Shown in pieces: positions 18,601 through 37,319 of a stretch of DNA of 54,019 nucleotides. Both the position numbers and the translations under genes were made by a program. Position 1 is the first letter of the stretch, and each line of letters opens with the position of its first letter. The notes under the pieces are model-generated. The model saw only the letters and a list, made by a program, of their open reading frames with translations, did no database searches and had not been told where the DNA came from. The stretch is from Desulfobacteraceae bacterium (GTDB lineage: Bacteria; Desulfobacterota; Desulfobacteria; Desulfobacterales; Desulfobacteraceae), in NCBI GenBank assembly GCA_024226935.1, contig JAAELK010000309.1, forward strand, positions 1-54,019. The letters run 5' to 3'.

Positions 18601-18654
18601 AAATCCCTCTCCAAGGCTTTTGCCGGTTAAAAGATCAACTCCCGGCGTCTTGTA

Positions 18655-18703: not shown

Positions 18704-18705
18704 AT

Positions 18706-19890: not shown

Positions 19891-19912
19891 TATAATTTTC
19901 CTCCACTTGGGA

Positions 19913-22309
19913 TTAATTGCGAAGCGGTTTGCCTGTGGCCAGCAGGTGGGTGATTCGCTCCATGGTTTTTTCCTGGGTCAGGTTTTCAATAAAGGTTTTC
20001 CTTTCCAGTGTTAGTATCACCTCTTCATCAACGGGGGTAGCATTTCCAACCTCCCCACCGCTGATTACCCGGGCAATCCGATTGGCCAGAAAGGCATCAT
20101 AATCACTGATAAAACCACCTTTGGTCATGTTCATGAGATAAGCCGCCACAGGCCCCTGGGCTGCATCTCCCAATACGGTGATATCGGTTTTAAGGGGAGG
20201 ACTATAGCCGTCTTCCACCATACGTAGTACTTCTTTTTTAGCTTCGGCTATGAGGCAATCCCGGTTGAAGACAATGCGGTCGGTTTCCCCTAAAAATCCA
20301 TTGATCCTGGCTTCGGCAGCAGAGGTGGAAACTTTGGCCATGGCAATGGCGGAAAATACTGGCATGAAAGCCGCCATGAGATCCGCCCCATTGATTGGTG
20401 GTCCCAGGCGCTTGGAAACCTTTTTCCAAAGGTTTAAGCAGCCTGCCCCGGCGGGTAAAAGGCCCACACCAACTTCTACAAGCCCCATGTATAGTTCGGT
20501 ATGGGCCACGATCCTGTCTGCTCCCAGACAAATTTCGCACCCCCCCCCCAGAGTCATGCCAAAGGGAGCAGCCACAACCGGGAAGGGGGCATATTTGGCT
20601 TTTTGTATCACGGCCTGGAAACTGGCAACGCCTCTGGAGATTTCATCAAAATTTCCGGCCTTTGCCCTTTTTGCCATGGCTTTGAGGTCAGCCCCGGCAG
20701 AAAAGGCTTTGGCAGCCTGGTTCCCGTATATAAGTCCCTGTCCATTTTCATTTACATAGTCCAGACATTCATCGATGAATACTTTTATCTCCGGGCTCAA
20801 GGCGTTCATTTTGGTATGAAATTCACAGCAGAAAACCCCGTCGCCAAGATCAATGAGTGAGGCTGAGGCACAGGATTTTACAAGCCCGGTACCGGATTTC
20901 AGGACTTTTAAGTCCAGTTCCTCTTCCTGTACAAGTTTTGCCAGATATTTTTGGCTGGAAAAATCATAGTAATATTGGATTGAGTTTTCGGTTTTATAAA
21001 ATGTTTTACAACCGTTGTTTAGCATCTTCATCACAGCGTCAGGCACTTCAAGTTTGTCGGATATCATCCGTTCCACGGCCGTTTCAACTCCGGCAGCATC
21101 CCACATTTCAAAGGGGCCCATGGCGGCATTAAATCCCCAGCGTACCGCCTTGTCTATTTCCAGGATGGTATCGGAAATTTCAGGGATCCTGTTGGCCGCA
21201 TAGATCCAGGTGCGGGATAGACATTTCCAGACATAGGCCGATCCCCTATCCTTGCCAAATACCATGGCCTGAATTTTCTCAGTCAGGGTCCCGGCCTTGG
21301 CAGCCTGGTCCAGGCAGGGAAAATCGGGTTTTTCAAAGGGTTCATATTCCAGAGTATCAGGATTGATGACAAGGATGGTTCTTTGTCCGTTTTTGTCCGT
21401 TACTTTTTTGTAAAATCCCCCCCGGGTCTTGTTGCCCAGGTATTTTTTTTCCACCATGGCACCCAGAAAATCCGGAGCCTTGAATCTGGCTTTTTCGCTG
21501 TCATCAGGCAATAGGGCATGGGTGTTTTCCGCAACTTGATAAAGGATATCCAGTCCCACCAGGTCTCCGGTTCTAAATTGTGCGGTTTTTGCCCGTCCAA
21601 GGGCGGGACCCATGAGGGCATCGACTTCGGGAATGCTTAAGCCCTGCTCCATCATGGTGTGGATATTGTTGAGAGAATTAAATATGCCTATGCGATTTCC
21701 AATAAAATTAGGTGTGTCCTTTGCCCAAACAATGCCCTTGCCAAGCCTTTTGCTGCCAAAATCAGCTATGAAATCCAGCACTTCTTGTTTGGTTTCTTGT
21801 CCTGGGATCAGCTCCAGCAGGTGCATGTATCTAACAGGATTAAAAAAATGGGTCCCAAGGAAATGGGACTTAAATTCCGGGCTTAACCCCTGGGTTATTT
21901 TTTCCAAAGGAATGCCCGAGGTGTTACTGGATACTATGGCATCTTTTTTCCGGACTGCCTGGATACGCTTGAATAGTTTTTGTTTGACTTCTAAATTTTC
22001 CAGCACCACCTCAATGATCCAGTCACAGTCGGCCAGCCGGTCAAAATCATCTTCCAGATTTCCAATGCTGATAAATTTTGCATCTCCCGGGGTCATCAGG
22101 GCGGCGGGTCTGGCCGTCAATAGATTATTAAAACCCTGCTCTACAATTTTGTTCCTGGCTTTTGGATCTTTTTTTTCATCCCCTTTCAGGTCAAAGGGGA
22201 TTATATCCAATAATGTGGTTTTTACACCGGCACTTGCTAAAAGGGCTGCAATTGCGCCGCCCATGACGCCTGATCCCAGGACCGCCGCCTTTCTGATCTT
22301 TTGTGTCAT
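19913..22309 (-). CDS. FadN-type 3-hydroxyacyl-CoA dehydrogenase/enoyl-CoA hydratase
   Basis: A 798-residue bifunctional beta-oxidation enzyme with the dehydrogenase first and the crotonase domain last, as in Bacillus FadN and unlike E. coli FadB. The NAD-binding loop is LGSGVMGGAIAALLASAG; the catalytic histidine region is GTHFFNPVRYMHLLELIPG; the hydratase domain has MTLGGGCEICLGADR and a following VEVGVGLLPAGAG. ATG at 22309 has GGAGAAG; an in-frame codon further upstream (near 22354) overlaps the dehydrogenase gene and lacks a site. It is 19 bases after the acyl-CoA dehydrogenase. Confidence 0.92.
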   Translation of the reverse strand: MTQKIRKAAVLGSGVMGGAIAALLASAGVKTTLLDIIPFDLKGDEKKDPKARNKIVEQGFNNLLTARPAALMTPGDAKFISIGNLEDDFDRLADCDWIIEVVLENLEVKQKLFKRIQAVRKKDAIVSSNTSGIPLEKITQGLSPEFKSHFLGTHFFNPVRYMHLLELIPGQETKQEVLDFIADFGSKRLGKGIVWAKDTPNFIGNRIGIFNSLNNIHTMMEQGLSIPEVDALMGPALGRAKTAQFRTGDLVGLDILYQVAENTHALLPDDSEKARFKAPDFLGAMVEKKYLGNKTRGGFYKKVTDKNGQRTILVINPDTLEYEPFEKPDFPCLDQAAKAGTLTEKIQAMVFGKDRGSAYVWKCLSRTWIYAANRIPEISDTILEIDKAVRWGFNAAMGPFEMWDAAGVETAVERMISDKLEVPDAVMKMLNNGCKTFYKTENSIQYYYDFSSQKYLAKLVQEEELDLKVLKSGTGLVKSCASASLIDLGDGVFCCEFHTKMNALSPEIKVFIDECLDYVNENGQGLIYGNQAAKAFSAGADLKAMAKRAKAGNFDEISRGVASFQAVIQKAKYAPFPVVAAPFGMTLGGGCEICLGADRIVAHTELYMGLVEVGVGLLPAGAGCLNLWKKVSKRLGPPINGADLMAAFMPVFSAIAMAKVSTSAAEARINGFLGETDRIVFNRDCLIAEAKKEVLRMVEDGYSPPLKTDITVLGDAAQGPVAAYLMNMTKGGFISDYDAFLANRIARVISGGEVGNATPVDEEVILTLERKTFIENLTQEKTMERITHLLATGKPLRN

Positions 22310-22328
22310 GATCTTCTCCATTTTAAGT

Positions 22329-24137
22329 TTAGAGTCCGCCAAAGGCTGCATCATCCATGGTCACTGCTGCATCGCACATGGCTTCTACCGAATTGATTTT
22401 TCCGAGGGTCACCGGTAAAAGGGAGGAGATAAAAAAGTTAGCCGTATGGAGTTGTCCTTCATAAAAGGATTTGTCTTTTTTTCCGGCTTTTTCCAGTTTT
22501 TCTTTTGCCGTAACTGCCCTCCATAGCATCATCCATCCCAGGGTTACATCCCCCATTATATGGAGAAAGGGAACCGAATGGGCAAATCCTGTTTTGATAT
22601 CCTGGGACATAATGGTGGAGAGAAGTTTTTTGGTGAGCCCGGCCAGGCCATCCACTGCCCCATCCAATTTTTGGGCCAGGTCGTAAAGTTGGGTTATCTC
22701 TTTTGCCTTGGCAATGGTTTGTTTCATCTCTCCGATATAAGCCCTGAATAAATCCCCATTTTCCATGGGAATTTTCCGGGCCACAAGATCCATGGACTGG
22801 ATGCCGGTGGTACCTTCGTAGATTGAGACAATTTTGCAGTCCCGGGTCAGGGCTTCCACAGGGTAATCCTGGCAATAGCCTGCCCCTCCATAAATCTGCA
22901 TGGCCTGGACACAGACATCGTAACCGACTTCTGAACAATAGCCTTTGACGATGGGAGTCAATAACTCCACCATGCCGGTAGCCCTGGTTTTCTGGGCCTG
23001 GTCTTTGCTGGCCTTGGCAAGATCAATATTCTTGAAAAGATAGTAGATCAGGCTTCGCATGCCATCCACATAGGATTTCATGGTGATCAGGTTGCGACGA
23101 ACATCCGGATGTTGGATGATTGGTACCGAGGGGCCTGTAAAATCACTTAAATCTTTTCCCTGGATACGTTCCCTGGCGTAGTTGAGGGCATAAAGATAGC
23201 AGGTGGAGGCGTAGGCCTGAGCCTGGAGGGCTGTACCCATTCTGGCACCGTTCATCATGCGAAACATGATCTTCATCCCCCGATTTTCCTCTCCTAAAAG
23301 GTAGCCCGTGCATTTTCCTTTGGATCCCATGGACATGGTACAGGTGCCATTACCGTGGAGGCCGTGTTTGTGCTCACAATTGGTGCACACAATATCATTT
23401 CTTTCTCCCAGGCTCCCGTCTTTGTTTACCAGATATTTTGGTACAATAAAGATGGAAATTCCTTTTGTGCCTTCGGGTGCGCCCTCCACCCGGGCCAATA
23501 CCGGATGAATGATCTGATCCACCAGATCATGTTCTCCGCAGGTGATAAAGATTTTAGTGCCGGTCAGGGTGTAGGTACCATCATCATTTTTTTTAGCTGA
23601 GGTGGTCAGGCGGCCCAGTTCAGAACCGGCATCGGATTCGGTGAGCAGCATGGTGCCTCCCCACTTGCCGGAGTACAGGTTCCTGATATAGGTTTCTTTT
23701 TGTTCCTGGGTGCCGAAATTTTCAATCATCCCTCCGGTTCCGGCCCCCATGGATCCATAGGCCATGATGGACCAATTGGCGCCGGAAAAATATTCCTTGG
23801 CGGCTCCGGAGATGGTGGCGGGAAGACCCTGTCCTCCCCACTCTTCCGAGGCTATTGGTGCTGTCCACTCGTTTTCAACATACAATTTATGGGCTTTTTT
23901 AAAACTGTCCGGGGTGGTTACTGTGCCGTCTCCATTGTAGCTCACTCCGGTTTTGTCGCCATCCTCGTAGGTGGGCAATAATTCTTTTATTGCCAGATTC
24001 CTGGCCTCATTGATGATCATATCAAAGGTCTTTTTATCAAAATCCTTAAATGCTTCAAATTGGAGCAGCTCTTGGACATCAAACATCTCATAGAGATTGA
24101 AATCGATATCACGACGATCCGAAATAAGTTGTGCCAT
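22329..24137 (-). CDS. acyl-CoA dehydrogenase, large FadE-like type
   Basis: A 602-residue acyl-CoA dehydrogenase of the group with an added C-terminal helical domain. The FAD region TMLLTESDAGSELG, the NGARMGTALQAQ helix and the catalytic glutamate in SIYEGTTGIQSMDL are clear. A short acidic, cysteine-containing insertion (CTNCEHKHGLHGNGTC) is present in the middle. It is the first gene of the long minus-strand operon, with a GGGGGAAAG ribosome site and a sigma-54 promoter about 115 bases upstream. Confidence 0.93.
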   Translation of the reverse strand: MAQLISDRRDIDFNLYEMFDVQELLQFEAFKDFDKKTFDMIINEARNLAIKELLPTYEDGDKTGVSYNGDGTVTTPDSFKKAHKLYVENEWTAPIASEEWGGQGLPATISGAAKEYFSGANWSIMAYGSMGAGTGGMIENFGTQEQKETYIRNLYSGKWGGTMLLTESDAGSELGRLTTSAKKNDDGTYTLTGTKIFITCGEHDLVDQIIHPVLARVEGAPEGTKGISIFIVPKYLVNKDGSLGERNDIVCTNCEHKHGLHGNGTCTMSMGSKGKCTGYLLGEENRGMKIMFRMMNGARMGTALQAQAYASTCYLYALNYARERIQGKDLSDFTGPSVPIIQHPDVRRNLITMKSYVDGMRSLIYYLFKNIDLAKASKDQAQKTRATGMVELLTPIVKGYCSEVGYDVCVQAMQIYGGAGYCQDYPVEALTRDCKIVSIYEGTTGIQSMDLVARKIPMENGDLFRAYIGEMKQTIAKAKEITQLYDLAQKLDGAVDGLAGLTKKLLSTIMSQDIKTGFAHSVPFLHIMGDVTLGWMMLWRAVTAKEKLEKAGKKDKSFYEGQLHTANFFISSLLPVTLGKINSVEAMCDAAVTMDDAAFGGL

Positions 24138-24250: not shown

Positions 24251-24266
24251 AGCAACAACCATGCCG
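24251..24266 (-). promoter_or_regulatory. sigma-54 promoter of the beta-oxidation operon
   Basis: On the minus strand CGGCATGGTTGTTGCT has the -24 GG and -12 GC dinucleotides exactly 10 bases apart and the TTGCT core. Transcription would start near 24240, leaving a leader of about 100 bases before the acyl-CoA dehydrogenase. The promoter at 30491 has the same layout. Confidence 0.75.
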
Positions 24267-24294
24267 GATCAATTTACAATTGGAAGCCATTGGT

Positions 24295-24391
24295 TAACTG
24301 ATTGTATTTAAAGGAAAAATATCGGTTTTTAAAATATTTTGTAATAATGACCATCGTCCTTGTTAACGAATAGAATCTGCTACAGTTTTTT
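24295..24391 (-). promoter_or_regulatory. conserved spacer blocks, including an IHF-like site
   Basis: Two blocks between promoter and activator site recur at the other sigma-54 promoter at identical distances. Block 1 has TTGTATTTAAAGG (24302-24314) and, on the minus strand, ATACAA-N4-TTA (24295-24307), which matches seven of nine fixed positions of the IHF consensus. Block 2 begins CGAATAGAAT at 24367 and continues CTACAGTTTTTT. An IHF site between activator site and promoter is usual for sigma-54 systems. Confidence 0.5.
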
Positions 24392-24434: not shown

Positions 24435-24470
24435 TGTAGAGAATATTATGCATGTATATTATCCTCTACA
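24435..24470. promoter_or_regulatory. tandem activator-binding sites (UAS pair)
   Basis: Two abutting 18-bp inverted repeats: TGTAGA-N6-TATGCA (24435-24452) and TGTATA-N6-TCTACA (24453-24470). They lie about 183 bp upstream of the -12 element. The same tandem pair stands at 30677-30712. The whole also reads as one long imperfect palindrome followed by T5, so a plus-strand terminator is an alternative. Apart from this and the promoter I see no gene in 24138-24596. Confidence 0.65.
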
Positions 24471-24596
24471 GATTTTTAGTTCAGTCTTTTTTCAGAATAT
24501 GGGGTGAAACCATGTTGGCATACCTCCATTTCGAACTCCGACTCAAATGATAGACAGATCTGTTTTCCCCAGGCTTTGAAGTTTAAAATAAATAGT

Positions 24597-25703
24597 TTAA
24601 TTATCACGAGCTTTCATGGCCCTGTCTGAAATTATCCGCATTAAATTATCCGCTTTTGAATCATAGGGAGGCCAGAACATATTCTCTTTAAAAAAGTTGG
24701 GGTCAGCGTCCAGGAGAACATTATGTTTCATTAAGGTAGAAGCTGCAACCATGCCAAGGTGTTTGACAACCCTGTCCTGTACTTTTTTGCCTATAAAATA
24801 ATTTAGAAAGATTTCTGCCGCTTCCAGTTTTCTTCCCGTCAGATCTTTGTGAAAATTAATGGTATCAAGCCAAACTGTATTTCCTTCTTTAAAGTTTATC
24901 AGCTTCCATTTTCCACCCCTTGCATTTTCAGCAGCAGCACTAATACCATAGGAGGCCACCAGAAGAAATTGGTCGGAAAATTCCGGTTCATTTTCCCAGA
25001 ACTTTCCAACCTGTGCGTACAATGCGGTTGTTTTTTTTTGTAATTTGCCATTGGGGGCGCCTTCACGAATAAGAACTTTTTTGTTTCCCGCTAGATCATT
25101 GAGATAAAACGGGGGTTTGCCAATGGCCAGTAAACTCAAGGCCAAATTGGGTTGAACCTGTCCTTTTGTGAGGGATAACCTTCCTTTCCATTTAGGTGCC
25201 CAAAGCTCATTTATAGAAATGGGAACATCAGTTATTTTTACCTTCTTTCTATTTATCCATATGCCATAAGCTCCGCCTCCAAATGGGACATAAAGATGTT
25301 TATCCTTGTCCATGCCCATGGCAATATTTGTCAGTGATTTAAGAAGAAATTTATAGTTTGTAAGTCGCGGTGAGTTTATATTGATCGGCTGTAGTAGTTT
25401 TGCTGTTCTGTTCCCTTGCATTTTAATATAATTCAGGGTTAAAAAACTTATATCCGCCCTGCCGCATTTTAATACATCAAACATCTGTTCAGGCCCTTCA
25501 GCCCAAGGTTGAATCACTTCTATATTGTAATCATACCCTTTGTATTTGAGTAGTTTATTTACCGCCGCAACCTCCCGGGCAATGACATATCCGTCCCATG
25601 TAAAAACCCTTAATTTATTATCGGCGGCGGATAGATTGCCAATGGATACAGTACAGCCGATTAAAATTGCGATCAATAAATTTTTACCGATTAAATGCCC
25701 CAT
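24597..25703 (-). CDS. PotD/PotF-like ABC transporter substrate-binding protein
   Basis: A 368-residue periplasmic binding protein with a signal peptide (MGHLIGKNLLIAILIGCTVS, cleavage near AA-DN around residue 27). The start of the mature protein (LRVFTWDGYV) and later YGIWINRKKV, WAPKWKGRLSL and LGMVAAS segments match the spermidine/putrescine binding group. No permease or ATPase gene is adjacent, so it would have to serve distant transporter subunits or act as a sensor. ATG at 25703 follows GGGAGGAAAA; a TATAAT -10 (minus strand, 25744-25749) lies upstream without a good -35. Confidence 0.78.
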   Translation of the reverse strand: MGHLIGKNLLIAILIGCTVSIGNLSAADNKLRVFTWDGYVIAREVAAVNKLLKYKGYDYNIEVIQPWAEGPEQMFDVLKCGRADISFLTLNYIKMQGNRTAKLLQPININSPRLTNYKFLLKSLTNIAMGMDKDKHLYVPFGGGAYGIWINRKKVKITDVPISINELWAPKWKGRLSLTKGQVQPNLALSLLAIGKPPFYLNDLAGNKKVLIREGAPNGKLQKKTTALYAQVGKFWENEPEFSDQFLLVASYGISAAAENARGGKWKLINFKEGNTVWLDTINFHKDLTGRKLEAAEIFLNYFIGKKVQDRVVKHLGMVAASTLMKHNVLLDADPNFFKENMFWPPYDSKADNLMRIISDRAMKARDN

Positions 25704-25844
25704 GTTTTCCTCCCGATATTATTCATAGATTATTGCACTATCGATTATAACGCGTATTTTGTTTCATGATGCATAGGACAATTTTCAGGCAAAAACTTCA
25801 ATGGCAAGGCAAATTGTGATGAATTTATGATTCTGAAAGTTAAG

Positions 25845-26453
25845 TTAGTAAAGAGACCATAGGTGGCCAATTAATCCAATTTGTCGCATTCCTTCAATCA
25901 CCTCAAGTATTCCAACTATCCAGATAAACCATAATGCACTGAAAATATGTTTCCTGTAAACAATGGGATTTACAATATAACTTTCAGGTTCTTCAAATAT
26001 AGAAAAACGTGGGAAAAATGCAGGTACTTTTCTGGTATATTCTTCAAATTGAGTTCCAAAAATTTGTTTGAGGCGATTTTCTTCACTTTTGATAACAAAT
26101 GGATAATAGAGTATAAACAAAAGAATAAAGACTATCGGAAAAGTAAAAGTTTCGGTGGCAAACCCAATGCCGATCACTCCTATCATACTAAAAAAATACA
26201 AGGGATTTCGACAAATAGAGTAGGGTCCTTTTATAATCAATTGATCATCTTTATAACCGGCAATATAAAGTGAACACCACATCCTTCCCAATGCAGAAAT
26301 AGCAACAAGGATTATGCCTATCAAAAATAAAAAGAATCTGATTATTTCATATTCAGTTTCCCAGTAACTTTGTGTAGTACAGAAAAAAAAGAGAACCACG
26401 GCTGCTGTAATACGAGATAAAACTATACGATATTTTTCAGCTTTAAAGTTCAT
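25845..26453 (-). CDS. isoprenylcysteine/phospholipid methyltransferase-family membrane protein
   Basis: A 202-residue integral membrane protein with four to five hydrophobic segments. The family signatures are visible: KGPYSICRNPLYF (substrate/SAM loop) and, later, SEENRLKQIFGTQFEEYTRKVPAFFP. Members methylate prenylcysteine, phospholipids or unknown lipids using SAM. The ATG at 26453 has an excellent AAGGAGGAG site. The same frame stays open for 66 more codons upstream (to 26651) and reads as plausible protein, but no ribosome site precedes it. The gene is visibly AT-richer than the beta-oxidation genes around it. Confidence 0.75.
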   Translation of the reverse strand: MNFKAEKYRIVLSRITAAVVLFFFCTTQSYWETEYEIIRFFLFLIGIILVAISALGRMWCSLYIAGYKDDQLIIKGPYSICRNPLYFFSMIGVIGIGFATETFTFPIVFILLFILYYPFVIKSEENRLKQIFGTQFEEYTRKVPAFFPRFSIFEEPESYIVNPIVYRKHIFSALWFIWIVGILEVIEGMRQIGLIGHLWSLY

Positions 26454-26740
26454 TTTCTCCTCCTTATCACGTCGTCTTGTCATGGGAAATATTGACAGAT
26501 AATATCTTCCCATTTTTTTTATGGATTTCCCATGGTTTTGAATGATTACCATATCATAGGGATTTAAATCTTCTATCAAAGATCCCATGGAGTGTACTTC
26601 AATGTCAAGATCCAAATTCACAACCTGTTTTTTGTGGCCCATATTGACCATACCAGAAAAAGATCCGGAGATTTAAGGGGTTTTGGGATTTTTTCTCCGA
26701 TATCCAGGTGGTTGGGCAACCAGGATTCTGGTACGCTGGA

Positions 26741-27468
26741 TTAGAAATTAATCTGCCATTTTATACCGTAATATATAACATCGGCATTGTTTTGATTCAT
26801 GTTATATCTGCCAATTTCCGGGGTTAAAGATACCCCGGGTGCAAGATAAATGGTTGATTGGATATAATAACTGTCAATATCATCTTTTTCAGCGCCTGAT
26901 GTGTCTAACTTTGTTTTCACATATCCGTAATCAGCCTCCAGGTAGAGGCCTTTCCGGATTGTGTATCCTGCCACAATCAGTGCCCCTAAGACCTTTCTAT
27001 CAGTCACTTTAGTGCCGTTGAACACGGCATAGCCAAGTCCGTCGCCATCCAATTGGTCCGGAGCGGAGGCGATGGCGTTATTTACCATACTTGTATTCAA
27101 GTTGCCAGTATTTTGTCCTCCCCAGAAATTGCCTTTAAAATATGCAGGCCCGGCATCAAAACGTCCGCCTACCCCGATTACCCACGAATTTACGGTATGA
27201 TTTTTCCCTGCATTGACAATATCAAAGGAGCAGAATCCCCCGGCAGCTTGGAGATGCCAATTATCCCCTTGATATTGGTGCCGATACAGGCGTTGCCATT
27301 GAGATTCTCTTCATAATTTTTTGTGTCTGTGCCGCCGTTGAAGGGATCCTTTTCATAGCCGGTATGGAATGTTGAAATACGGGCTGATCCGTAAAAATTC
27401 CAGTCTGCAGCCGGAGCAGAACCTGTGATCAGTATAAATATCGTAATCATGGCCAACGATTTTTTCAC
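26741..27468 (-). pseudogene. outer-membrane porin remnant, frameshifted and shortened
   Basis: Two frames make one short porin-like product. The first (GTG at 27468) gives a signal peptide (KKSLAMITIFILITGSAPAA) and the mature start DWNFYGSARISTF typical of deltaproteobacterial porins, but runs to a stop at 27190 after a GGGGG tract (27237-27241 region). One extra G would restore the frame FDIVNAGKNH...WVIGVGGRFDAGPAYFKGNF that continues into the second part, ending YYGIKWQINF with the terminal phenylalanine of a beta-barrel. Even rejoined, about 240 residues is well short of the roughly 400 usual, so an internal deletion is likely. A sequencing error explains the shift but not the length. 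Confidence 0.7.
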
Positions 27469-27517
27469 CTTGTACCCTTTGGTTGGAATTGAACAATTAG
27501 TTCACTATCTGGATAAC

Positions 27518-27547
27518 CTAATAAAGGGTGTTGAAATCGACGGTCAA
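27518..27547 (-). promoter_or_regulatory. promoter upstream of the porin remnant
   Basis: On the minus strand TTGACC (27542-27547) and TATTAG (27518-27523) are separated by 18 bases, about 50 bases before the GTG start. A leftover promoter of the broken porin gene is the simplest reading. Confidence 0.4.
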
Positions 27548-27587
27548 GCGTTTGATAAAATAATAATAAATTCAGTTATTTGTGTTT

Positions 27588-27655
27588 AAAAAACCTCTGT
27601 TTAAGTGTATGTTCTTTGAGATTCCAATCAAAAAAAATAAACACAAAAATAGAGG
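27588..27655 (-). terminator. terminator downstream of the aldehyde/alcohol dehydrogenase gene
   Basis: On the minus strand a long imperfect stem (CCTCTATTTTTGTG ... TACACTTAAACAGAGG) is followed by TTTTTT (27588-27593). Nearer the gene a perfect 9-bp repeat CCCCGGCAG/CTGCCGGGG (27694-27713) also folds. Together they would end the transcript from 30384. Confidence 0.6.
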
Positions 27656-27723
27656 CTTTATGCAAGGATTCTAAGCAAAAGGTGTTTGATCTTCCCCGGC
27701 AGTTCTGCCGGGGAGCTGATTTC

Positions 27724-30384
27724 CTAATATGCCTGGTTATAAAGATCGATCACTTCCTTAAGGGATGTGACCGGATGTGCATTGAACATGGCGGCTGCAT
27801 CTCCCATGGTATGTATGGCACAGTTATCGATGGATTCTTTGGGTACCTTGACATCCCGAAGTCGCAGTGGGTGGTTGACTGTTTTTAAGAGGGATTCTAT
27901 GGCATCGGCGGCAGCCAGGGCGGCTGTCCGTTCATCTTTTTCCGATATGTTGACTCCCAATGCCTGGGCCGCCATGCTTAGTTTGGATGCTGCCGCATCA
28001 ACATTGAAACGCATTACCTTGGGTAAAATAATCCCACAGGCAGCTCCATGGGGAACGTCGTAGAGTGCGCCGATGGTGTGAGCCATGGCGTGGACCAGGC
28101 CTACCTGTGCAATGCCGAAGGCCCATCCCGCCATGGTTGCCGCCAGTTGAAGATTGCTTCTGGCCTGTTCGTCCTGACCGTTTTGAACCACTTTGGGAAG
28201 GTTTTCATGGATCAGGCGGATGGCCTGAAGTGCCTGGCCATCACACAGGGGCTGGGAACGGGTACTGGTGAGTGCCTCGATGGCATGGGTCATGGCATCC
28301 ATGGCCGTTGTCACGGTAAGCCCCTGGGGTAGACCCATTGTGAAACGGGGATCAAGAATGGCGGTATTGGGTATGATGCGTGGATCGAGGAGATAAACTT
28401 TGCGTCCTAGATCTTTATTTTTGATTACTGCTACATTGGTTACTTCACTGCCGGTACCGGAGGTGGTGGGAATGACGATGTGGGGTGTCTGGGGTTCCTG
28501 GAGCCGGACCATGGTAATGTGGTCATTGGCGCTGCCGCCGTTTTTCAAGGCTACGCATACCACTTTTGCCGTATCAATGACACTACCGCCCCCTACACTC
28601 ACGATGCAGTCGGCTTCCAGGTCCCGGGCCATTTTGGTAGCTGCATCGACAGTGTCTAGGGAGGAATCCTGTTCAATCTGGTCAAATACTCCCACGCAAT
28701 AATCTACAAGAGCATCTTCCACCATCTGGGTTAATCCTGTTTTTCGAACGCCTTTATCTGTGATCACAAGGACTTTCGAGGCACCAAGTTTGTTGACTTC
28801 TTTGTAAATGGCCGGCAGGCATCCATGACCAAAAATGATATTGGTGGGACAATTATATTGCACAAAGGGATTTTTTCTTTCATCGGTGATGATACCCATG
28901 GCATTATTGCTGCCCAGGGCTTCGTAGTTGCTGAAATGAATTCTTTTGATTTGGACAAATTCAGACAGGCCGGCTTGCCCCATTTCTCTTCCAAAACCCG
29001 ATTGTTTATAACCACCAAAGGGACAGAAATCTCCAAATGCGTGGTAGGAGTTGATCCACATGGTGCCTGTGCGAATTTGTCTTGCAATTTTTTCCGCCCG
29101 TTTGTTGTTTCCGGAAAAGATTCCCCCTGCCAGGCCATACTTGGAATCGTTTGCAATGGCAATGGCTTCGTCTTCATTTTTGTAAGGGATTACAGACACC
29201 ACAGGACCGAATATCTCTTCTTGTGCAATGCGCATCTTGTTGTTTACGTTGGCAAAAATGGTGGGTTCATAATAGTATCCGCCGTTGATGCCCTCTATCT
29301 CGGCTCGACGGCCTCCGGTGATGAGTTCTGCGCCTTCTTGCTTTCCAATTTTTACATAGTCTTCTACGATGGCCAGTTGTTGGGCACTGACCAGGGGGCC
29401 CAGGTGGTTTTGGGGCATGAGCTGGTACCCCACACGAAGGGCTTGGGTTCGTTTTTTCATTTTATCGATGAATTCATCATAAAGAGAGTTGGGAACCAAT
29501 ACCCGCGTTCCCGATTCACAGACCTGGCCCTGGTGAAAAAAGGTACCGAACACTGCACCATTGACTGCAACATCCATGTCTGCGTCATCTAGGATAATAT
29601 TTGCCGATTTGCCCCCCAGTTCAAGGGTGACTTTTTTTATGGTTTCAGCTGCCATTTTCATGATGGTCTTACCGATTTTCGTGCTTCCGGTAAAAGAAAT
29701 TTTATCCACAAAGGGATGGGTGCACAATATTTTTCCGATCTCATGCCCCCGGCCTGGAATAATATTTATGACGCCATCGGGGATACCGGCTGCTTTGGCT
29801 GCTTGTGCAATGAGTAGGGCACTCAAGGGGGTCTGGGTTGCCGGTTTTAAAACGATGGTATTGCCCATTATGATGGCATGGGCAATCTTCCAAAATGCCA
29901 TGCTGGCCGGAAAATTCCAGGGAATGATTCCTGCACATACTCCCAGGGGTTCACGGAGGATATAGTCCCGGCCGGGAGCTGCAACATTTCCAGAAAAAGG
30001 GATCTCCTCTTTCCATGGAAAATTGTTGGCGGCAAAATAGGCCAGGTTTCGTAATAATCCAGACCCGCTGGAAGCCCAAAATTTGGTCAACCGGATTACC
30101 TGTCCTGCATCCATGGCTTCGGTCACGGCAAGGCGCACTCCTAAAAGAGTCACCTGATCGGCAAAGCTATACACTCTGGTTGCCCGTTGGGCTGGGGTAA
30201 GATTTGGCCATTCTCCATGGTCAAAGGCCTTTCTTGCAGCTTCTATGGCTCTGAGGGCATCACTTTCGCCTGCCTGGGCCACCGTGGCAATAGGTTGTTC
30301 ATTTCCTGGATCATAGGTAACAAAGGTCTTTTTGTCTGCGGCATCCATAAATTTTCCATCGATATACATTTTGTATGAATCCAT
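27724..30384 (-). CDS. fused aldehyde dehydrogenase/iron-containing alcohol dehydrogenase
   Basis: An 886-residue two-domain enzyme. Residues 1 to about 495 are a classical NAD(P) aldehyde dehydrogenase with PWNFP (N157), LELGGKS (E255) and the catalytic C289 in GQVCESGTR. From about 505 a group III iron alcohol dehydrogenase follows, with GGGSVIDTAK and predicted metal ligands D696, H700, H765 and H779. The domain order is that of AdhE, but the first domain keeps the general-base glutamate and looks like a hydrolytic, not CoA-acylating, dehydrogenase. It could oxidise an alcohol through a channelled aldehyde to the acid. ATG at 30384 follows GAGGAGAAG; expression is from a sigma-54 promoter. 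Confidence 0.88.
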   Translation of the reverse strand: MDSYKMYIDGKFMDAADKKTFVTYDPGNEQPIATVAQAGESDALRAIEAARKAFDHGEWPNLTPAQRATRVYSFADQVTLLGVRLAVTEAMDAGQVIRLTKFWASSGSGLLRNLAYFAANNFPWKEEIPFSGNVAAPGRDYILREPLGVCAGIIPWNFPASMAFWKIAHAIIMGNTIVLKPATQTPLSALLIAQAAKAAGIPDGVINIIPGRGHEIGKILCTHPFVDKISFTGSTKIGKTIMKMAAETIKKVTLELGGKSANIILDDADMDVAVNGAVFGTFFHQGQVCESGTRVLVPNSLYDEFIDKMKKRTQALRVGYQLMPQNHLGPLVSAQQLAIVEDYVKIGKQEGAELITGGRRAEIEGINGGYYYEPTIFANVNNKMRIAQEEIFGPVVSVIPYKNEDEAIAIANDSKYGLAGGIFSGNNKRAEKIARQIRTGTMWINSYHAFGDFCPFGGYKQSGFGREMGQAGLSEFVQIKRIHFSNYEALGSNNAMGIITDERKNPFVQYNCPTNIIFGHGCLPAIYKEVNKLGASKVLVITDKGVRKTGLTQMVEDALVDYCVGVFDQIEQDSSLDTVDAATKMARDLEADCIVSVGGGSVIDTAKVVCVALKNGGSANDHITMVRLQEPQTPHIVIPTTSGTGSEVTNVAVIKNKDLGRKVYLLDPRIIPNTAILDPRFTMGLPQGLTVTTAMDAMTHAIEALTSTRSQPLCDGQALQAIRLIHENLPKVVQNGQDEQARSNLQLAATMAGWAFGIAQVGLVHAMAHTIGALYDVPHGAACGIILPKVMRFNVDAAASKLSMAAQALGVNISEKDERTAALAAADAIESLLKTVNHPLRLRDVKVPKESIDNCAIHTMGDAAAMFNAHPVTSLKEVIDLYNQAY

Positions 30385-30490
30385 GTTACTTCTCCTCAAA
30401 GAGTTGATCCTTTTTAATTGCGGGCATTATCATAGAATGATTTTAGATTCTTCCGATCTTCATTGATATGCTATAATTTGTTATAAGTAG

Positions 30491-30506
30491 AGCAATAGGT
30501 GTGCCA
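30491..30506 (-). promoter_or_regulatory. sigma-54 promoter of the aldehyde/alcohol dehydrogenase gene
   Basis: The minus-strand sequence TGGCACACCTATTGCT matches the sigma-54 consensus (TGGCAC-N5-TTGCW), with GG and GC 10 bases apart. Predicted start near 30480, about 96 bases before the ATG. Confidence 0.88.
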
Positions 30507-30534
30507 ATCTGTTTTTTTTGGAAAACTTTTGGTT

Positions 30535-30631
30535 TAACGACTTGTATTTAAAGGCAAAAAAAGTGTTATGGTAAAATTGTACCAGGGAATTGACTAACTT
30601 TTTTTGCGAATAAAATACACTACATTTTTTA
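30535..30631 (-). promoter_or_regulatory. conserved spacer blocks, including an IHF-like site
   Basis: TTGTATTTAAAGG (30542-30554) begins 36 bases beyond the promoter, exactly as at 24302, and contains ATACAA-N4-TTA on the minus strand (30535-30547). CGAATAAAAT at 30607 continuing to CTACATTTTTT lies 65 bases further, again the same offset as at 24367. The conserved spacing suggests a functional IHF-bent loop or recent common origin. Confidence 0.5.
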
Positions 30632-30676
30632 AAAGTTTTAACAGCCTTTCCTTGATTATTACCGATCCCGGGTGAT

Positions 30677-30712
30677 TGTATATTAATTTATACATGTAGA
30701 ATTTTTTATACA
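30677..30712. promoter_or_regulatory. tandem activator-binding sites (UAS pair)
   Basis: Two abutting 18-bp inverted repeats, TGTATA-N6-TATACA (30677-30694) and TGTAGA-N6-TATACA (30695-30712), about 185 bp upstream of the -12 element and 47 bases from the stop of the activator gene. They are the best half-sites for the neighbouring PAS-AAA-Fis protein. The rest of 30385-30758 contains no gene. Confidence 0.7.
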
Positions 30713-30758: not shown

Positions 30759-32138
30759 TTAAATTATATTGTATTTTTTCATTTTCTGATATAAGCCGGT
30801 CCGATGGATCCCCAGCAACTCGGAGGCCTTTATTTTATTGTCGTTGGTTTGTTTTAACGCCCGGATAATGGTTTTGCGTTCCGTATCTTCCATAATAGTT
30901 TTCAGGGAGGTCAAAGGAGGAAGACAGGCTTTGGAGGTAGGAATTGCGTCTTGAATAGGGATGGGTAGATCTTTGAGTTTGATACAATTGTTTTGGTGGA
31001 GAATGATGGCTCTTTCTGCCACATTCTTAAGTTCTCGAGCGTTGCCCGGCCAGTCATATCTTTGAAGTGCTGTCAGTACTTCCGGCGCCACGGTCGGAGC
31101 CGGGTGTTTATGGTTGGATAATAGTTTTTCGATGAGATGTTTGAAAATAAGGGGAATATCCTCCGGGATATCTCTCAGGGCAGGTAAATGAATATTGATA
31201 ACATTGAATCTATAATAAAGATCCAGGCGAAATTTGCGCTTGTTGATCAGTTCTTCAAGATCCTGGTTGGTGGCGCTGATGATTCGAAAATCGATTTGTC
31301 TTGGTTTATTCTCCCCGATGCGTTCCACTTCTTTTTCCTGGAGTACCCGCATGAGTTTTACCTGCATTTTGAGGGGCATATCTCCTATTTCGTCTAAAAA
31401 GATGGTGCCCTTATCGGCCAATTCAAACTTACCGGGTTTGCCCTTGGGATTGGCTCCGGTGAAGGCCCCCGGTTCATAACCAAACATTTCCGCTTCAAAG
31501 AGTTCTTTGGGAATGGCAGCACAGTTAACCCGTACAAAATTTTGTTGCCGCCGCTTGCCGGCCCTGTGAATAGCGTGGGCAAACAGCTCTTTTCCTGTAC
31601 CGGATTCTCCGGTAATGAGGACAGGGGAATCATTTTCCGCGGCCAGTTGGGAAAGTGCTTTGGCATCCTTAAGAGATGGTGAGTTACCGATGATTTCCGA
31701 AAAAGAATATCGAATATCGTATAATAGACTCAGTTCATCTTTATAATGGTTCAGGTTTTTTTCAAGGGATTCAATGCGCTTGTAGAGATTTTTTACTTGG
31801 GTGGGATTGGAAAACATCAATTTCCCGACGGCCCCGATGACACGGCCGTTTTTTTTTAGTGGAATCTTTGCGGTAATTCTGTTTTCTCCTTTTACGGTTA
31901 TGAAATCACCGATTTCGGCTTTTCCCGTTTCGAGAACACGGGATAATTTGCTTTCGGGGATAACATCGCTGATATATTTCCCACGGGAGCTTGCCGCTGA
32001 TACAGGGTAATATTTTTCATAGGCTTGGCTCATAAATCGAACCTTGCCGTATCGATCGATGATGATGATATGCTCGTAGGGGTTATTCAGCACTGCTGAA
32101 AGCAAATCTTTGGAGAGTTCGTTTTGTGTATCACCCAT
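30759..32138 (-). CDS. PAS-domain sigma-54-dependent activator (bEBP)
   Basis: A 459-residue enhancer-binding protein. A PAS-like sensor domain (about 10-115), a coiled linker, a AAA+ domain with Walker A GESGTGKE (177-184), the sigma-54 contact loop GAFTGA (225-230) and Walker B TIFLDEIGD, then a Fis-type helix-turn-helix at the C terminus (NKIKASELLGIHRTGLYQKMKK). No receiver domain, so it probably senses a small molecule. It is upstream of, and reads toward, the aldehyde/alcohol dehydrogenase gene with a sigma-54 promoter between them. Start uncertain: ATG 32138 is used; GTG at 32150 is in frame. Confidence 0.92.
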   Translation of the reverse strand: MGDTQNELSKDLLSAVLNNPYEHIIIIDRYGKVRFMSQAYEKYYPVSAASSRGKYISDVIPESKLSRVLETGKAEIGDFITVKGENRITAKIPLKKNGRVIGAVGKLMFSNPTQVKNLYKRIESLEKNLNHYKDELSLLYDIRYSFSEIIGNSPSLKDAKALSQLAAENDSPVLITGESGTGKELFAHAIHRAGKRRQQNFVRVNCAAIPKELFEAEMFGYEPGAFTGANPKGKPGKFELADKGTIFLDEIGDMPLKMQVKLMRVLQEKEVERIGENKPRQIDFRIISATNQDLEELINKRKFRLDLYYRFNVINIHLPALRDIPEDIPLIFKHLIEKLLSNHKHPAPTVAPEVLTALQRYDWPGNARELKNVAERAIILHQNNCIKLKDLPIPIQDAIPTSKACLPPLTSLKTIMEDTERKTIIRALKQTNDNKIKASELLGIHRTGLYQKMKKYNII

Positions 32139-32307
32139 AGTAAAAGACACCTTTTCTTTTTACGGTTGACCCAAATACTTAAATTCCATTTTTTTTGCAA
32201 AAATCCCTATCTGCATATCATGTTATTTCATCAAGGGGAAGTCAGTATCTATAGATCTGTTTTTCCGGGGCACCGAAACCGGATATTAACTCCCGGGAAA
32301 AATAGAG

Positions 32308-32381: not shown

Positions 32382-32906
32382 CTATTGAATCAATGTCATC
32401 CCCTGGTCCAGATATTTCAGGGCCAGATCCACATAAACTTGTTTGCCGTAATTCCATAGTTCCTGATCTTCGGCCGTGACATCTCTTATTACTTTGACAG
32501 GATTTCCCACTGCCACCACTCGGGGTGCAATTTTCTGGTTGGCCCGGACAAGGGATCCTTCTCCAATAATGGTCCACTCCCCTGTTTGAGAAAAAATACT
32601 CAGGATGGCTCCCATACCGATTACACAAAAATCTCCTATTTCATTGCCATGGAGAATGGCCCCATGCCCTAAGGTGACACTTTTACCGATGTGATACTGG
32701 CCCCCGGGAGGAGAATGGATTACCACGGCTTCTTCCACGGCTGTGCCGTCTCCGATTTCAATGCGGCCGTAGTCCCCCCGGAGGATGGCTCCATGCCCCA
32801 CATAACAATTGTCACCGATTAACACATTTCCGATTACCTGGGCGGTTTCACTTACATAGCTGTTCCTGCCGATTTGAGGTGAATTATTGTCAAATGCAAA
32901 AAGCAT
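32382..32906 (-). CDS. gamma-carbonic-anhydrase-like left-handed beta-helix protein
   Basis: A 174-residue hexapeptide-repeat protein of the YrdA/PaaY/gamma-carbonic anhydrase family. It carries LRGDYGRIEIG (Arg and Asp of the active site) and the three histidine positions in VVIHS and LGHGAILHG that bind metal. Family members are carbonic anhydrases or, like PaaY, CoA-thioester hydrolases. As the last gene of a biotin carboxylase operon it could supply bicarbonate or remove dead-end CoA esters. ATG at 32906 is chosen because homologues start at MLxxFD; an in-frame ATG at 32921 overlaps the preceding stop. Neither has a clear ribosome site, so translation is probably coupled. Confidence 0.82.
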   Translation of the reverse strand: MLFAFDNNSPQIGRNSYVSETAQVIGNVLIGDNCYVGHGAILRGDYGRIEIGDGTAVEEAVVIHSPPGGQYHIGKSVTLGHGAILHGNEIGDFCVIGMGAILSIFSQTGEWTIIGEGSLVRANQKIAPRVVAVGNPVKVIRDVTAEDQELWNYGKQVYVDLALKYLDQGMTLIQ

Positions 32907-32910
32907 GGTT

Positions 32911-34062
32911 CTAAAAACCATAGGTTTTGGTGATGATTTCGCTCATGACCTCGCTGGCGCCGCCGCCAATGGAGAGCAACCGGGAGTCCCTGAACAACCG
33001 GGAGATTCTCATGTCGTTCATGAATCCCATGCCGCCGTACATCTGGAGACATCCCGAGGAGACATCATTTAAAAGATCTCCCCCCAATAATTTACCCATG
33101 GAGATTTGTCTTGTGACATCCTGGCCTTTCATTTTCATGCGTACTATATGGTAGGCCAATTGCTGGAGACTCTCAGCCTGGGCCAGCCAATGGGCAAGGC
33201 GGTGGCGCAATACCTGTTTTTTGATCAAAGGTTTGCCAAAGACAATCCTGCCTTTCAGATGTTCAATGGTTTCAAAAATCATATCCTTGACGCTGATATA
33301 GGTGAGGGGCAGAACCGCGAAGCGTTCGTGCTGAAATTGCTGCATCTGCTGGATAAAGCCTTCTCCTTCAATTCCAATGAGGTTTTCAACCGGAATTTTC
33401 ATGTTGTCAAAATAGAGTTCCGCCGTATCGGAACTGCGCATTCCCAGCTTGTCCATTTTTTTTGAAACCTGGAAGCCTGGCAGGTTGGTGGGCACCACAA
33501 AGAGGCTGAAACTGTGGTAGCCGGGGGCATCGGAAGTTCTTGCCAGCAGGGTGAGAAAATCGGCCTGGAGTCCGTTGGTGATAAAGGTTTTTGACCCGTT
33601 GAGAATATAATGATCCCCTTGTTTTACAGCGGTTGTTTTCAGGGCGGCCACATCGGATCCGGCATCGGGTTCGGTGACGGCAATGGCTGTCACCATATCT
33701 CCCTTCAGAGCCGGTTTTAAATAGGTCTGTTTTAAATATTCGGAGCCGTATTGGGCAATGGCAGGAGTTGCCATGTTGGATTGAACCGAGATGGCCATGG
33801 GAACTCCTCCGCACTTGATCCTGGCACATTCTTCTAAAACAACGGTTTCATACCAATAATCCAGGCCTTCTCCTCCGTATTCTTCGTTATAACGAATGCC
33901 CAGAAAACCTAATTCTCCCATTTTTTTGAACAGTTCATGGAGGGGGATCATCCCTTCTTCTTCCCAGTCATCCACATGGGGATTTATCTCTTTTTTGACA
34001 AAATCTCTGACAGCCTTGCGAACCAGTTCATGTTCTTTGTTAAAGTATATTTCGCTTCCCAT
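32911..34062 (-). CDS. acyl-CoA dehydrogenase (AtuD/isovaleryl-CoA dehydrogenase-like)
   Basis: A 383-residue acyl-CoA dehydrogenase. AIAVTEPDAGSDVAAL and the ILNGSKTFITNG segment mark the FAD domain. The C-terminal motif is SIGGGASEVMSEII without the EG-type glutamate, while QHERF in the preceding helix carries a glutamate at the position used by isovaleryl-CoA dehydrogenase; both features are usual in the branched-chain LiuA/AtuD group. It lies between the AtuA-like and gamma-carbonic-anhydrase-like genes and should create the alpha,beta double bond before carboxylation. ATG follows GGGAGAG. Confidence 0.88.
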   Translation of the reverse strand: MGSEIYFNKEHELVRKAVRDFVKKEINPHVDDWEEEGMIPLHELFKKMGELGFLGIRYNEEYGGEGLDYWYETVVLEECARIKCGGVPMAISVQSNMATPAIAQYGSEYLKQTYLKPALKGDMVTAIAVTEPDAGSDVAALKTTAVKQGDHYILNGSKTFITNGLQADFLTLLARTSDAPGYHSFSLFVVPTNLPGFQVSKKMDKLGMRSSDTAELYFDNMKIPVENLIGIEGEGFIQQMQQFQHERFAVLPLTYISVKDMIFETIEHLKGRIVFGKPLIKKQVLRHRLAHWLAQAESLQQLAYHIVRMKMKGQDVTRQISMGKLLGGDLLNDVSSGCLQMYGGMGFMNDMRISRLFRDSRLLSIGGGASEVMSEIITKTYGF

Positions 34063-34097
34063 TTGAACTCTCCCTATAATAGTATTTTTATTCTGGT

Positions 34098-35900
34098 TTA
34101 TTTGTTTGATCCAGTATCAGATTTTAAGATGGATACAGGTACTTTAATGGTTTTAGCTCTTAAATATTCCCCTAGAGTTTTGGCTTGGGGATCACTTCTC
34201 ATGGAAGCTGCAACTCCGTGCCCCAATAGCCCTTTTATATAAAAATTTAGGGCCAGAAGGTTGGGCAATTCGTATCTTTCAATTTCATAGATACAAAGAT
34301 CCGGTAAAAGTAATTTTAATCGGTCAATGGTTAAAAATCGGGATAAGAATGAAAATTTTTGGGTATCTTTTGCCCATACTCCCAGGTTGGCATTGCCGCC
34401 CTTATCTCCTGACCGGGTGGCAAAGAGGCGTCCAAAGTGGATCTCTTGTGTTGGAACTGCTTTATTTAATAAACTTTCTATTTGATTTTGCAGGGCTTGT
34501 TTTGGAACATAGGGTTTTGCGGCGTCACTTTTTGTTCCCAAGGTGGTTGGTTTGATATCAAAAATTTGATCCTTTAGATGGACTTGTTGCCGGATCAACT
34601 TATTGTTTATCAGGGCAGGCCAGTGGCGGATGGCGGGGGTCCCATGGGAGGGAGGGCCTGTCAGGGTAAATCCCGGGATGCTTGCCAGGGCCAATTCCAC
34701 TAATTTACTGGAAAATAGCTTGCCTGCCTTGCCGGAATCCGGGTCCATGACAGATATGCGAAGGTGTGCAAAGGCTAGATCATTGGTGTCAGGATTTTGT
34801 TGATCCCACCGGATGAGCTGGGTTTCAACCTGGGCAAACTGGTCTTTTCCTCCCATTAAGTCAAACAGGTTTTCTTCAACAAGCTTCGCTTTTTTTTCAA
34901 TGTCCAGGCCCGTAAGCACCACGGTCATGGTATTGCGATGGCCCCAGAGGGTATTGATACAGACCTTGGTCTGGTTTGTGGGTGGTTCTCCTTTTATATG
35001 GGAAATTTTTACCCGGTCTTTTCCCTCCTGGGTCATTTCAATGGTATCAAATCTTGCTGTGACATCAGGGGTAAGGTAGCCGGGTGTGCGGATTTCATAC
35101 ATGAGCTGGGCCGTGACCGTTCCCTTTGATACCAGACCTCCGGTACCGGGATGCTTGGTGATGACAAAGGAGCCATCCTGGTGCATTTCGGCAATGGGAA
35201 AGCCCATGTTTTTATAGGAGGGTACTTCATCTATAAATGAGTAGTTGCCTCCGGTGGCCTGGGTGCCACACTCAATAATATGTCCGGCTGCATAGGCGCC
35301 GGCAAGCTTGTCCCAGTCGTTTTCTTTCCAGTTAAATTTCCATGCGCAGGGTCCGGATACCAGGGCTGCATCGGCAATGCGTCCACCTACCACAATGTCA
35401 GCTCCCAGGGTGAGAGCCCGGGTAATACCCCATCCCCCCAGATAGGCATTTGCCGTTATGGGGTTTCCCTGGGCATCTTTTAAGGCCGTCCCCGTGTCCA
35501 GATGGGTAAAAGCCTCTCCTTTTTTTTGGAAGTCTGAAAGTTCCGGCAATAGATCGTCGCCGGTAATGGCGGCTACCACAGGTGCAAGACCCAGGGTCTG
35601 GCTGATCTTTTTCAATTCATTTGCAAGCCCCTGGGGATTAAGCCCTCCGGCATTGGCCACAATTTTGATTCCCTTGTCCAGGCACTCGCCCATGACCTCT
35701 TCCATCTGTTTGAGAAAGGGGGTTGCATAACCTTTTTCCGGAGATTTCATCTTCATTCTAAACAGGAGTGCCATGGTGAGTTCTGCCAGATAATCTCCGG
35801 TGAGCACATGGATTTTGCCTCCTGTTACCATTTGCTTTGCCGCTGAGAGTCGGTCACCTAGAAATCCGCTGCAATTGGCTATGATTAATTTGTCATTCAT
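34098..35900 (-). CDS. AtuA-like (DUF1446) acyclic terpene utilisation protein
   Basis: A 600-residue cytoplasmic protein of the AtuA/DUF1446 family, with the typical start LIIANCSGFLGDR, then GDYLAELTMALL, IVANAGGLNPQGLA, VGGRIADAALVSGP, and the C-terminal ATRSGDKGGNANLGVWA. AtuA is required for citronellol and geraniol use in pseudomonads, but its reaction is unknown; relatives accompany acyl-CoA carboxylases widely. Here it sits in one operon with dehydrogenase, hydratase and carboxylase genes, as in the atu cluster. ATG at 35900 follows AAGGAGC; upstream in-frame codons lie inside the hydratase gene. Confidence 0.88.
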   Translation of the reverse strand: MNDKLIIANCSGFLGDRLSAAKQMVTGGKIHVLTGDYLAELTMALLFRMKMKSPEKGYATPFLKQMEEVMGECLDKGIKIVANAGGLNPQGLANELKKISQTLGLAPVVAAITGDDLLPELSDFQKKGEAFTHLDTGTALKDAQGNPITANAYLGGWGITRALTLGADIVVGGRIADAALVSGPCAWKFNWKENDWDKLAGAYAAGHIIECGTQATGGNYSFIDEVPSYKNMGFPIAEMHQDGSFVITKHPGTGGLVSKGTVTAQLMYEIRTPGYLTPDVTARFDTIEMTQEGKDRVKISHIKGEPPTNQTKVCINTLWGHRNTMTVVLTGLDIEKKAKLVEENLFDLMGGKDQFAQVETQLIRWDQQNPDTNDLAFAHLRISVMDPDSGKAGKLFSSKLVELALASIPGFTLTGPPSHGTPAIRHWPALINNKLIRQQVHLKDQIFDIKPTTLGTKSDAAKPYVPKQALQNQIESLLNKAVPTQEIHFGRLFATRSGDKGGNANLGVWAKDTQKFSFLSRFLTIDRLKLLLPDLCIYEIERYELPNLLALNFYIKGLLGHGVAASMRSDPQAKTLGEYLRAKTIKVPVSILKSDTGSNK

Positions 35901-35910
35901 GGGGGCTCCT

Positions 35911-36684: not shown

Positions 36685-36726
36685 AATTCCCCCTGATTGA
36701 TCTGTTCTTAAGTTTGATCGCCTGGC

Positions 36727-37272: not shown

Positions 37273-37319
37273 GTATATTTCCTTGTATTGTCAAAACCAT
37301 TTTTTGCTGAAACTTACGG

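Follow-up and report, generated by a model that had tools for sequence, protein, structure and literature searches.

The locus

The subject of this report is a 54,019-bp stretch of DNA (the window; positions 1 to 54,019 of contig JAAELK010000309.1, assembly GCA_024226935.1) from a Desulfobacteraceae bacterium. It carries two 36-bp tandem operators, one upstream of bdhE, which encodes a fused aldehyde and alcohol dehydrogenase, and one before a predicted beta-oxidation operon. Beside the first lies the gene of a sigma-54-dependent activator that probably binds both. The features, in window coordinates, are as follows.

12563–24137, minus strand: predicted beta-oxidation operon, eight consecutive genes with gaps of at most 56 bp (Pfam)
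24251–24266, minus strand: -24/-12 element of the beta-oxidation operon, CGGCAT-N5-TTGCT, a weaker match with CGGCAT replacing TGGCAC
24435–24470, no strand: tandem operator before the beta-oxidation operon, two abutting 18-bp TGTA-N10-TACA dyads, 36 bp (pattern search)
27724–30399, minus strand: BdhE, a BADH-like aldehyde dehydrogenase (ALDH) fused to an Fe-type alcohol dehydrogenase (ADH) (Pfam/NCBIfam; PDB match)
30491–30506, minus strand: -24/-12 element of bdhE, TGGCAC-N5-TTGCT; no other exact consensus occurs in the window
30677–30712, no strand: tandem operator upstream of bdhE, two abutting 18-bp TGTA-N10-TACA dyads, 36 bp (pattern search)
30759–32150, minus strand: one-component sigma-54 activator with PAS-like N-terminus, AAA+ domain with GAFTGA, and HTH_8; recognition region LLGIHRTGLYQKMKKY

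According to Pfam, the beta-oxidation operon encodes an acyl-CoA dehydrogenase, a 3-hydroxyacyl-CoA dehydrogenase/enoyl-CoA hydratase (3HCDH/ECH), a thiolase, an acyl-CoA ligase, two family III CoA-transferases, an MFS transporter and a TetR regulator. Its eight genes are presumably co-transcribed. The TetR-family gene stands at the operon end (12563–13165, minus strand) and is perhaps a second layer of control.

Tandem operators and sigma-54 promoters

An earlier note on this DNA had described abutting 18-bp inverted repeats of the form TGTADA-N6-TNTRCA at the two operator positions, and pattern searches with shuffled controls have confirmed them. In the window this pattern has seven strand-hits, every one of them at an operator, against an expectation of 0.12; none of 100 shuffles reached seven. 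With at most one mismatch, the tandem core TGTA-N10-TACA-TGTA-N10-TACA matches the window twice and is absent from 300 dinucleotide shuffles. With at most two mismatches, all 300 shuffles together yield a single match.

The genome scan that the note had proposed covered the 590 contigs (6.09 Mb) of the organism's own genome. There the tandem IUPAC pattern has no exact match outside the two window operators, and its control gave 0. With at most two mismatches a looser pattern still finds these two places only, and the reversed control gives three, so that this count by itself is no evidence. Because the control matches as often at looser settings, it is the position of the sites and not their number that carries the argument in this genome. 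A related pattern with at most three mismatches adds one further place (contig C462; control 2). Similar 36-bp palindromes (TTACAATATT...TACATGTACA...) lie at L099:5709-5744 (contig C462 of the same genome) and at L092:8817-8852 (genome G036), where a clade activator was not seen in the flanking stretch examined; they may be chance or the site of another regulator.

Each operator lies upstream of a -24/-12 element, with a gap to the -24 element of 168 bp at the beta-oxidation operon and 170 bp at bdhE. The 183 and 185 bp of the earlier note hold as counts to the -12 edge, and its 47 bases between the activator's stop codon and the second operator are corrected to 46 bp. The beta-oxidation promoter scores 13.5 as an element, against 15. 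No terminator-like site was found in either operator region, and no convincing IHF site was seen by eye between operator and promoter. A box, TTTAAATACAA-N3-GTTAA, occurs upstream of both -24 elements (24291–24314 and 30531–30554). It is still recognisable, with changes, in the two corresponding promoters of a sister species, G080.

The activator

The protein encoded at 30759–32150 has an AAA+ domain (Sigma54_activat, Pfam E 9e-71) with GAFTGA and the Walker A sequence GESGTGKE, and a C-terminal HTH_8 domain (Pfam E 6e-12), which is a Fis-type helix-turn-helix. It had been described as a PAS-AAA-Fis activator with an intact GAFTGA. The AAA and HTH_8 parts and the intact motif stand; the PAS_4 match of the N-terminus (19.8 bits) is below the Pfam cut-off of 23.1. 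The PAS domain PF00989 is matched at E ≤ 0.01 by 18 of 22 members of the clade described below. No receiver domain is present among the Pfam matches. The best NCBIfam match, PrdR (NF041552), reaches 469.4 bits, under its cut-off of 795. The activator appears to be of the one-component PAS-AAA-HTH_8 type with a small regulon, a kind already known. RpoN is encoded elsewhere in the genome.

The arrangement is kept in the sister species G080, whose activator is 85% identical. At one contig end, the order is activator, tandem site, TGGCACACCTGTTGCT and the start of bdhE, with an operator gap of 171 bp to TGGCAC-N5-TTGCT. A second contig begins inside bdhE and continues with a tandem site, TGGCACAGCTGTTGCT, an acyl-CoA dehydrogenase (77%) and a 3HCDH/ECH protein (74%). 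This second site has two mismatches, forms a near-perfect 36-bp palindrome and lies 170 bp from a full-consensus TGGCAC-N5-TTGCT. Only these two tandem sites occur in the G080 genome at up to two mismatches (reversed control 1). Between bdhE and the beta-oxidation genes, the neighbour gene of bdhE is common to the window and G080 and the remainder differs, so the rearrangement there has left operator and promoter in place. In the window this neighbour gene (26744–27468, minus strand) is read in two frames, and in G080 it is one intact frame of 368 amino acids; the window copy appears to be broken or an assembly error.

A clade of activators accompanied by the tandem site

A protein search with the activator gave matches (E ≤ 1e-60) in every one of the family's 86 genomes; most are to other activators. 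The best 30 loci, the window's own included, were chosen by protein alone, one per genome, with 1.5-kb flanks where the contig allowed. Among the 29 loci of relatives, the tandem site was found at 15 with at most one mismatch, at 25 with at most two and at 26 with at most three, and the reversed pattern at 0, 1 and 6. Twenty loci of other sigma-54 activators, hand-picked from matches that align over the AAA+ part only, had no tandem site at any of the three thresholds. Where the site is present (26 loci), it stands upstream of the activator in 25.

Searches that started from the site led back to the same proteins. Across the family, the tandem pattern with at most one mismatch occurs at 35 places in 27 of 86 genomes (control: two places in two genomes). 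Twenty-one of these lie within 500 bp of a clade activator, and three more have one on the same contig within 7 kb, the window's beta-oxidation site being one of the three; the tally leaves four places unjudged (G003, G036:C80, G052 and G059:C56). A blind search with the exact pattern in 389 genomes of the order matched 14 genomes, and the reversed control none. In all six matches outside the family, the site lay beside, or overlapped the start of, a clade activator 42–56% identical to that of the window.

In a tree of 59 activators, 32 with the site (at most three mismatches, within 500 bp) and three without it form one supported group (98/93). Some of its rows come from loci that were fetched for having a site, and four truncated open reading frames (ORFs) of activators were left out. 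Outside the group fall 24 paralogues, with one long-branch paralogue at its base, where its place is unsure. The group comprises the window's subclade and a larger one.

The pairing extends to promoters. An outward-facing -24/-12 element was found 85–260 bp from 39 of 47 tandem sites (47 loci, at most two mismatches), compared with 15% of random intergenic positions. Of 26 larger-subclade promoters, 16 have an operator gap of 99–101 bp and four one of 141–145 bp. By eye, a conserved box around GTCGA (often AAAGTCGAGAAAA) is also seen, roughly 30 bp from the tandem site towards the promoter, at these loci of this subclade: L063 (second site), L065-L067, L072-L074, L077, L226, L227 and L229.

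The protein side of the pairing was read from the recognition regions. These are mostly LLGIHRTLLYKKM in the larger subclade and LLGIHRTGLYQKM in the window's, with variants, and HRT-x-LY-x-K is invariant within them in 22 of 22 aligned clade members. It is absent from the tails of the 24 paralogues, which have ITRTTLNNK and others. The operator consensus is TGTATCA...CTACATGTAgA...TGcTACA in the larger subclade and TGTATA...TATACATG.ATA...TATACA in the window's (seven sites). Operators and recognition regions would fit a common TGTA/TACA core around which the inner bases vary.

The targets of the clade vary. Twenty proteins encoded by first downstream genes, the window's subclade included, comprise ten short-chain dehydrogenases, five periplasmic binding proteins (two families), one acyl-CoA ligase, one 3HCDH, one DUF2141 protein and two without a match, one of which is a wrong-strand ORF. 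In G054, of the window's subclade, the activator and tandem site are divergent from genes for 3HCDH, acyl-CoA dehydrogenase and two thiolases. In G210, which belongs to the same subclade but comes from another family of the order, the activator is followed by the tandem site, a -24/-12 element, a 3HCDH-like gene (assigned by eye from the translation) and an acyl-CoA dehydrogenase gene. A -24/-12 element accompanies the site before these genes in G054 as well.

The enzyme BdhE

The product of 27724–30399, in which the ALDH part precedes the Fe-ADH part, has its best PDB match in 9LDL (residues 6-891, 1486 bits). Its ALDH part is nearest to BADH, yet under the family cut-off (516.8 vs 668.6 bits). 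The label AdhE (PRK13805, NF010378) was rejected at 318.6 bits against a cut-off of 951. The protein of 9LDL, an ALDH-ADH fusion, was named BdhE in 2025 (PMC12454647); statements on this and the other papers cited refer to the parts of each that were available. The BdhE of Halomonas eurihalina was active in the oxidation of ethanol and of choline and in the reduction of acetyl-CoA, and roles in fermentation and betaine metabolism have been proposed (PMC12454647). No further literature on the enzyme was present among the matches listed. The window enzyme had earlier been called an alcohol-to-acid enzyme. An acid is only one possible product, since the Halomonas enzyme also reduces acetyl-CoA, and acyl-CoA is possible too.

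BdhE is rare. It was found at E ≤ 1e-200 in two of the 86 family genomes, and in G080 it is split over two contig ends. Eight bdhE-like loci of other groups, taken from 80 that were fetched, had neither a clade activator nor a tandem site (at most three mismatches); seven are 61–65% identical and one 41%, and several lie on short contigs. This rarity and the absence at the eight loci, taken with the beta-oxidation neighbours in G054 and G210, suggest that a beta-oxidation operon was probably under this control first and that bdhE was added later, as a lineage-specific recruit.

A probable single activator for two operons

We favour the reading that the single sensor-activator at 30759–32150 binds both operators and co-induces bdhE and the beta-oxidation operon, and assign it a probability of about 0.87 from the comparative sequence evidence. 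The sequence itself shows the operators, the promoter elements, the activator's domains, how these are conserved and the association of the site with the activator clade. From what is established for the protein family, activator dimers would occupy both dyads of each 36-bp operator, which stands some 170 bp from its -24/-12 promoter on the upstream side, and the PAS-like domain would sense a metabolite of the pathway. The activator would then assemble into an AAA+ ring, loop to sigma-54 RNA polymerase and open both promoters, with transcription starting there. Alcohol/aldehyde oxidation and beta-oxidation would thereby be induced together. The earlier note had proposed both that this activator binds the two sites and that one sensor joins the alcohol/aldehyde enzyme to beta-oxidation. 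The first proposal is supported by the arrangement in G080, by the contrast of 25 of 29 loci with 0 of 20, and by the six of six blind matches outside the family; the second is well supported by comparative genomics.

Several observations weigh against this reading. Three of the 29 activator loci lack a tandem site at three mismatches (G036:C117, G041:C148 and G057:C64), and the first of these activators (50% identity) falls in the window's own subclade; a site with two mismatches does occur in G036 about 7 kb from the activator and 181 bp from a -24/-12 element. At three mismatches, the reversed pattern also matches six of the 29 loci. For seven of the 35 tandem places, the flanking stretch examined contains no activator of the clade, and eight of the 47 tandem sites have no -24/-12 element within 85–260 bp. 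In the window itself, the beta-oxidation promoter deviates from the consensus (CGGCAT), and both upstream regions contain weak sigma-70-like matches at about chance level.

Four alternatives were considered. The one that survives best, although improbable, is that the sites are real and only bdhE is controlled here, the beta-oxidation promoter of the window having decayed. In favour of this is the weaker -24 element. However, neither the -24 GG nor the -12 GC core is lost, the spacing is retained, and G080 has the full consensus at the same promoter.

It is very unlikely that the palindromes are bound by another regulator acting as a repressor, for example the TetR protein encoded at the operon end. 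Its gene sits within the beta-oxidation operon, and operators of the TetR family are often AT-rich palindromes. Sites at 168–170 bp upstream of the promoter elements, however, are more in keeping with activation than with repression, and tandem sites go with the activator clade (25 of 29 loci and all six blind matches outside the family) with differing target genes. We give equally little weight to binding by some other sigma-54 activator of this genome, with the neighbouring one being incidental. Candidates are not scarce, as the genome has 19 scored activator matches among 49 candidates. Against this stand the 20 loci of other activators in related genomes, which lack the site, the differing recognition regions of the 24 paralogues, and the persistence of activator and site together in G080. 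That the palindromes are transcription terminators, one after the activator gene and one after the gene ending at 24597, is almost certainly wrong and was rejected: both inverted repeats lie downstream of minus-strand stop codons, but neither region has a terminator-like site and the sites of relatives, in 25 of 26 cases, lie on the activator's upstream side.

A possible third site

Beyond the two tandem operators, two weak candidates for a further site were noted.

30607–30624, minus strand: candidate third site of the activator at bdhE, half-kept (TGTAG...TATTCG), 52 bp from the tandem site towards the promoter
24367–24384, minus strand: candidate third, half-kept site at the beta-oxidation promoter, at an offset of 50 bp

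In an alignment, the place of the box TGTAG...TATTC, 50–52 bp promoter-side of the tandem site, is kept in four of four promoters from the window and G080. G210 has a perfect TGTA-N10-TACA 42 bp promoter-side, a score that 7 of 2000 mononucleotide shuffles reach. In G080 the score is reached by 236 of 2000 shuffles at one promoter and by more than 1300 at the other. Both window promoters are not above chance (more than 1300 of 2000 shuffles reach the score), G054 and G036 are exceeded still more often (more than 1600 of 2000), and 24 larger-subclade promoters are no different in score from their shuffles (5.46 vs 5.51). Because scores are at chance in the window and the larger subclade, the third site is only a lead, and a hexamer scaffold built on it is conjecture.

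A joint reading of these parts is tentative and falls somewhat short of even odds. The 36-bp double dyad would be the recognition unit, with two dimers meeting across a fixed TACATGTA centre, and in the larger subclade the outer and inner half-sites would tend to differ (TGTATCA outside, TGTAGA inside). A third copy on the promoter side (perfect in G210) would, in the window's subclade, complete a scaffold for a hexamer. BdhE would have been captured by an older beta-oxidation regulon, where it would work oxidatively and feed alcohols into beta-oxidation.

Genes upstream of the activator

The activator gene is preceded on its own strand (32382–40451, minus) by genes for a carboxyltransferase, a biotin carboxylase, a biotin carrier, an enoyl-CoA hydratase, an AtuA-like protein, an acyl-CoA dehydrogenase and a hexapeptide protein. 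G080 has a similar gene order, with two copies of the acyl-CoA dehydrogenase. No tandem site was found upstream of these genes at up to four mismatches, and their transcription may read through into the activator gene. A geranyl-CoA carboxylase (terpene) function was rejected despite the AtuA-like protein: the carboxyltransferase reaches 453 bits with geranyl-CoA carboxylase, fewer than with the chains of propionyl-CoA carboxylase (652 bits) and methylcrotonyl-CoA carboxylase (647 bits). No substrate is therefore assigned to this operon.

Comparison with known systems

Regulation of this general kind has precedents. In Desulfobacteraceae, single-component activators, such as sigma-54-dependent ones, make up most of the regulators whose genes belong to or adjoin catabolic clusters (PMC11887813). 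Sigma-54 targets have been reported to include beta-oxidation genes, with enrichment in Clostridia and Bacilli (PMC12316311). No description of the tandem operator was recognised in the literature searched, which was open-access only and is therefore weak evidence of novelty.

The regulator AdhR of Clostridium beijerinckii is a sigma-54 activator with GAF and PAS domains that activates two alcohol dehydrogenase genes via repeated upstream sites (PMC7017808). It resembles the window activator, which has a PAS-like N-terminus, as a sigma-54 activator tied to alcohol dehydrogenases through such sites. AdhR differs in its additional GAF domain, in needing three sites per promoter and in serving alcohol synthesis (PMC7017808); here there are two dyads, with a third doubtful, and the targets are a BdhE fusion and a beta-oxidation operon. 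NorR likewise needs three enhancer sites, which serve as the scaffold for a ring-forming sigma-54 activator (PMC2941729). Several sites as a scaffold are the shared feature, whereas NorR senses NO via a GAF domain and the window has two abutting dyads.

In Desulfovibrio vulgaris Hildenborough, sigma-54-dependent activators recognise TGT/ACA half-sites 9, 11 or 12 bp apart, their genes often lie beside their promoters, and most regulons comprise one to four operons (PMC4641369). Half-site motifs and an activator adjoining its probable target are found in the window too, and the predicted regulon is small. The words tandem, aldehyde and alcohol dehydrogenase do not occur in the main text of that paper, and no such double operator was found in it. 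A TGT/ACA motif with a 10–12-bp spacer and multiple sites has also been described in Clostridiales (PMC6615313). PrdR, an AAA-HTH activator, shares these features (PMC6615313). It differs in that its target is proline reductase, and the window activator falls under its cut-off with profile positions 1-131 unmatched.

For BdhE, the published protein (PMC12454647; PDB 9LDL) is the same ALDH-ADH fusion over nearly its full length, and the available part of that paper describes no regulator. The enzyme, known from enzyme assays and a structure, would here gain a regulatory context, one suggesting that alcohol oxidation is coupled to beta-oxidation. A clade of activators without a described site in the literature searched would likewise gain a testable operator for reading regulons across the order. 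To conclude, the sigma-54 activator with its PAS-like N-terminus is of a known kind, and the parts of interest are the double operator kept across its clade and the regulatory context proposed for BdhE.

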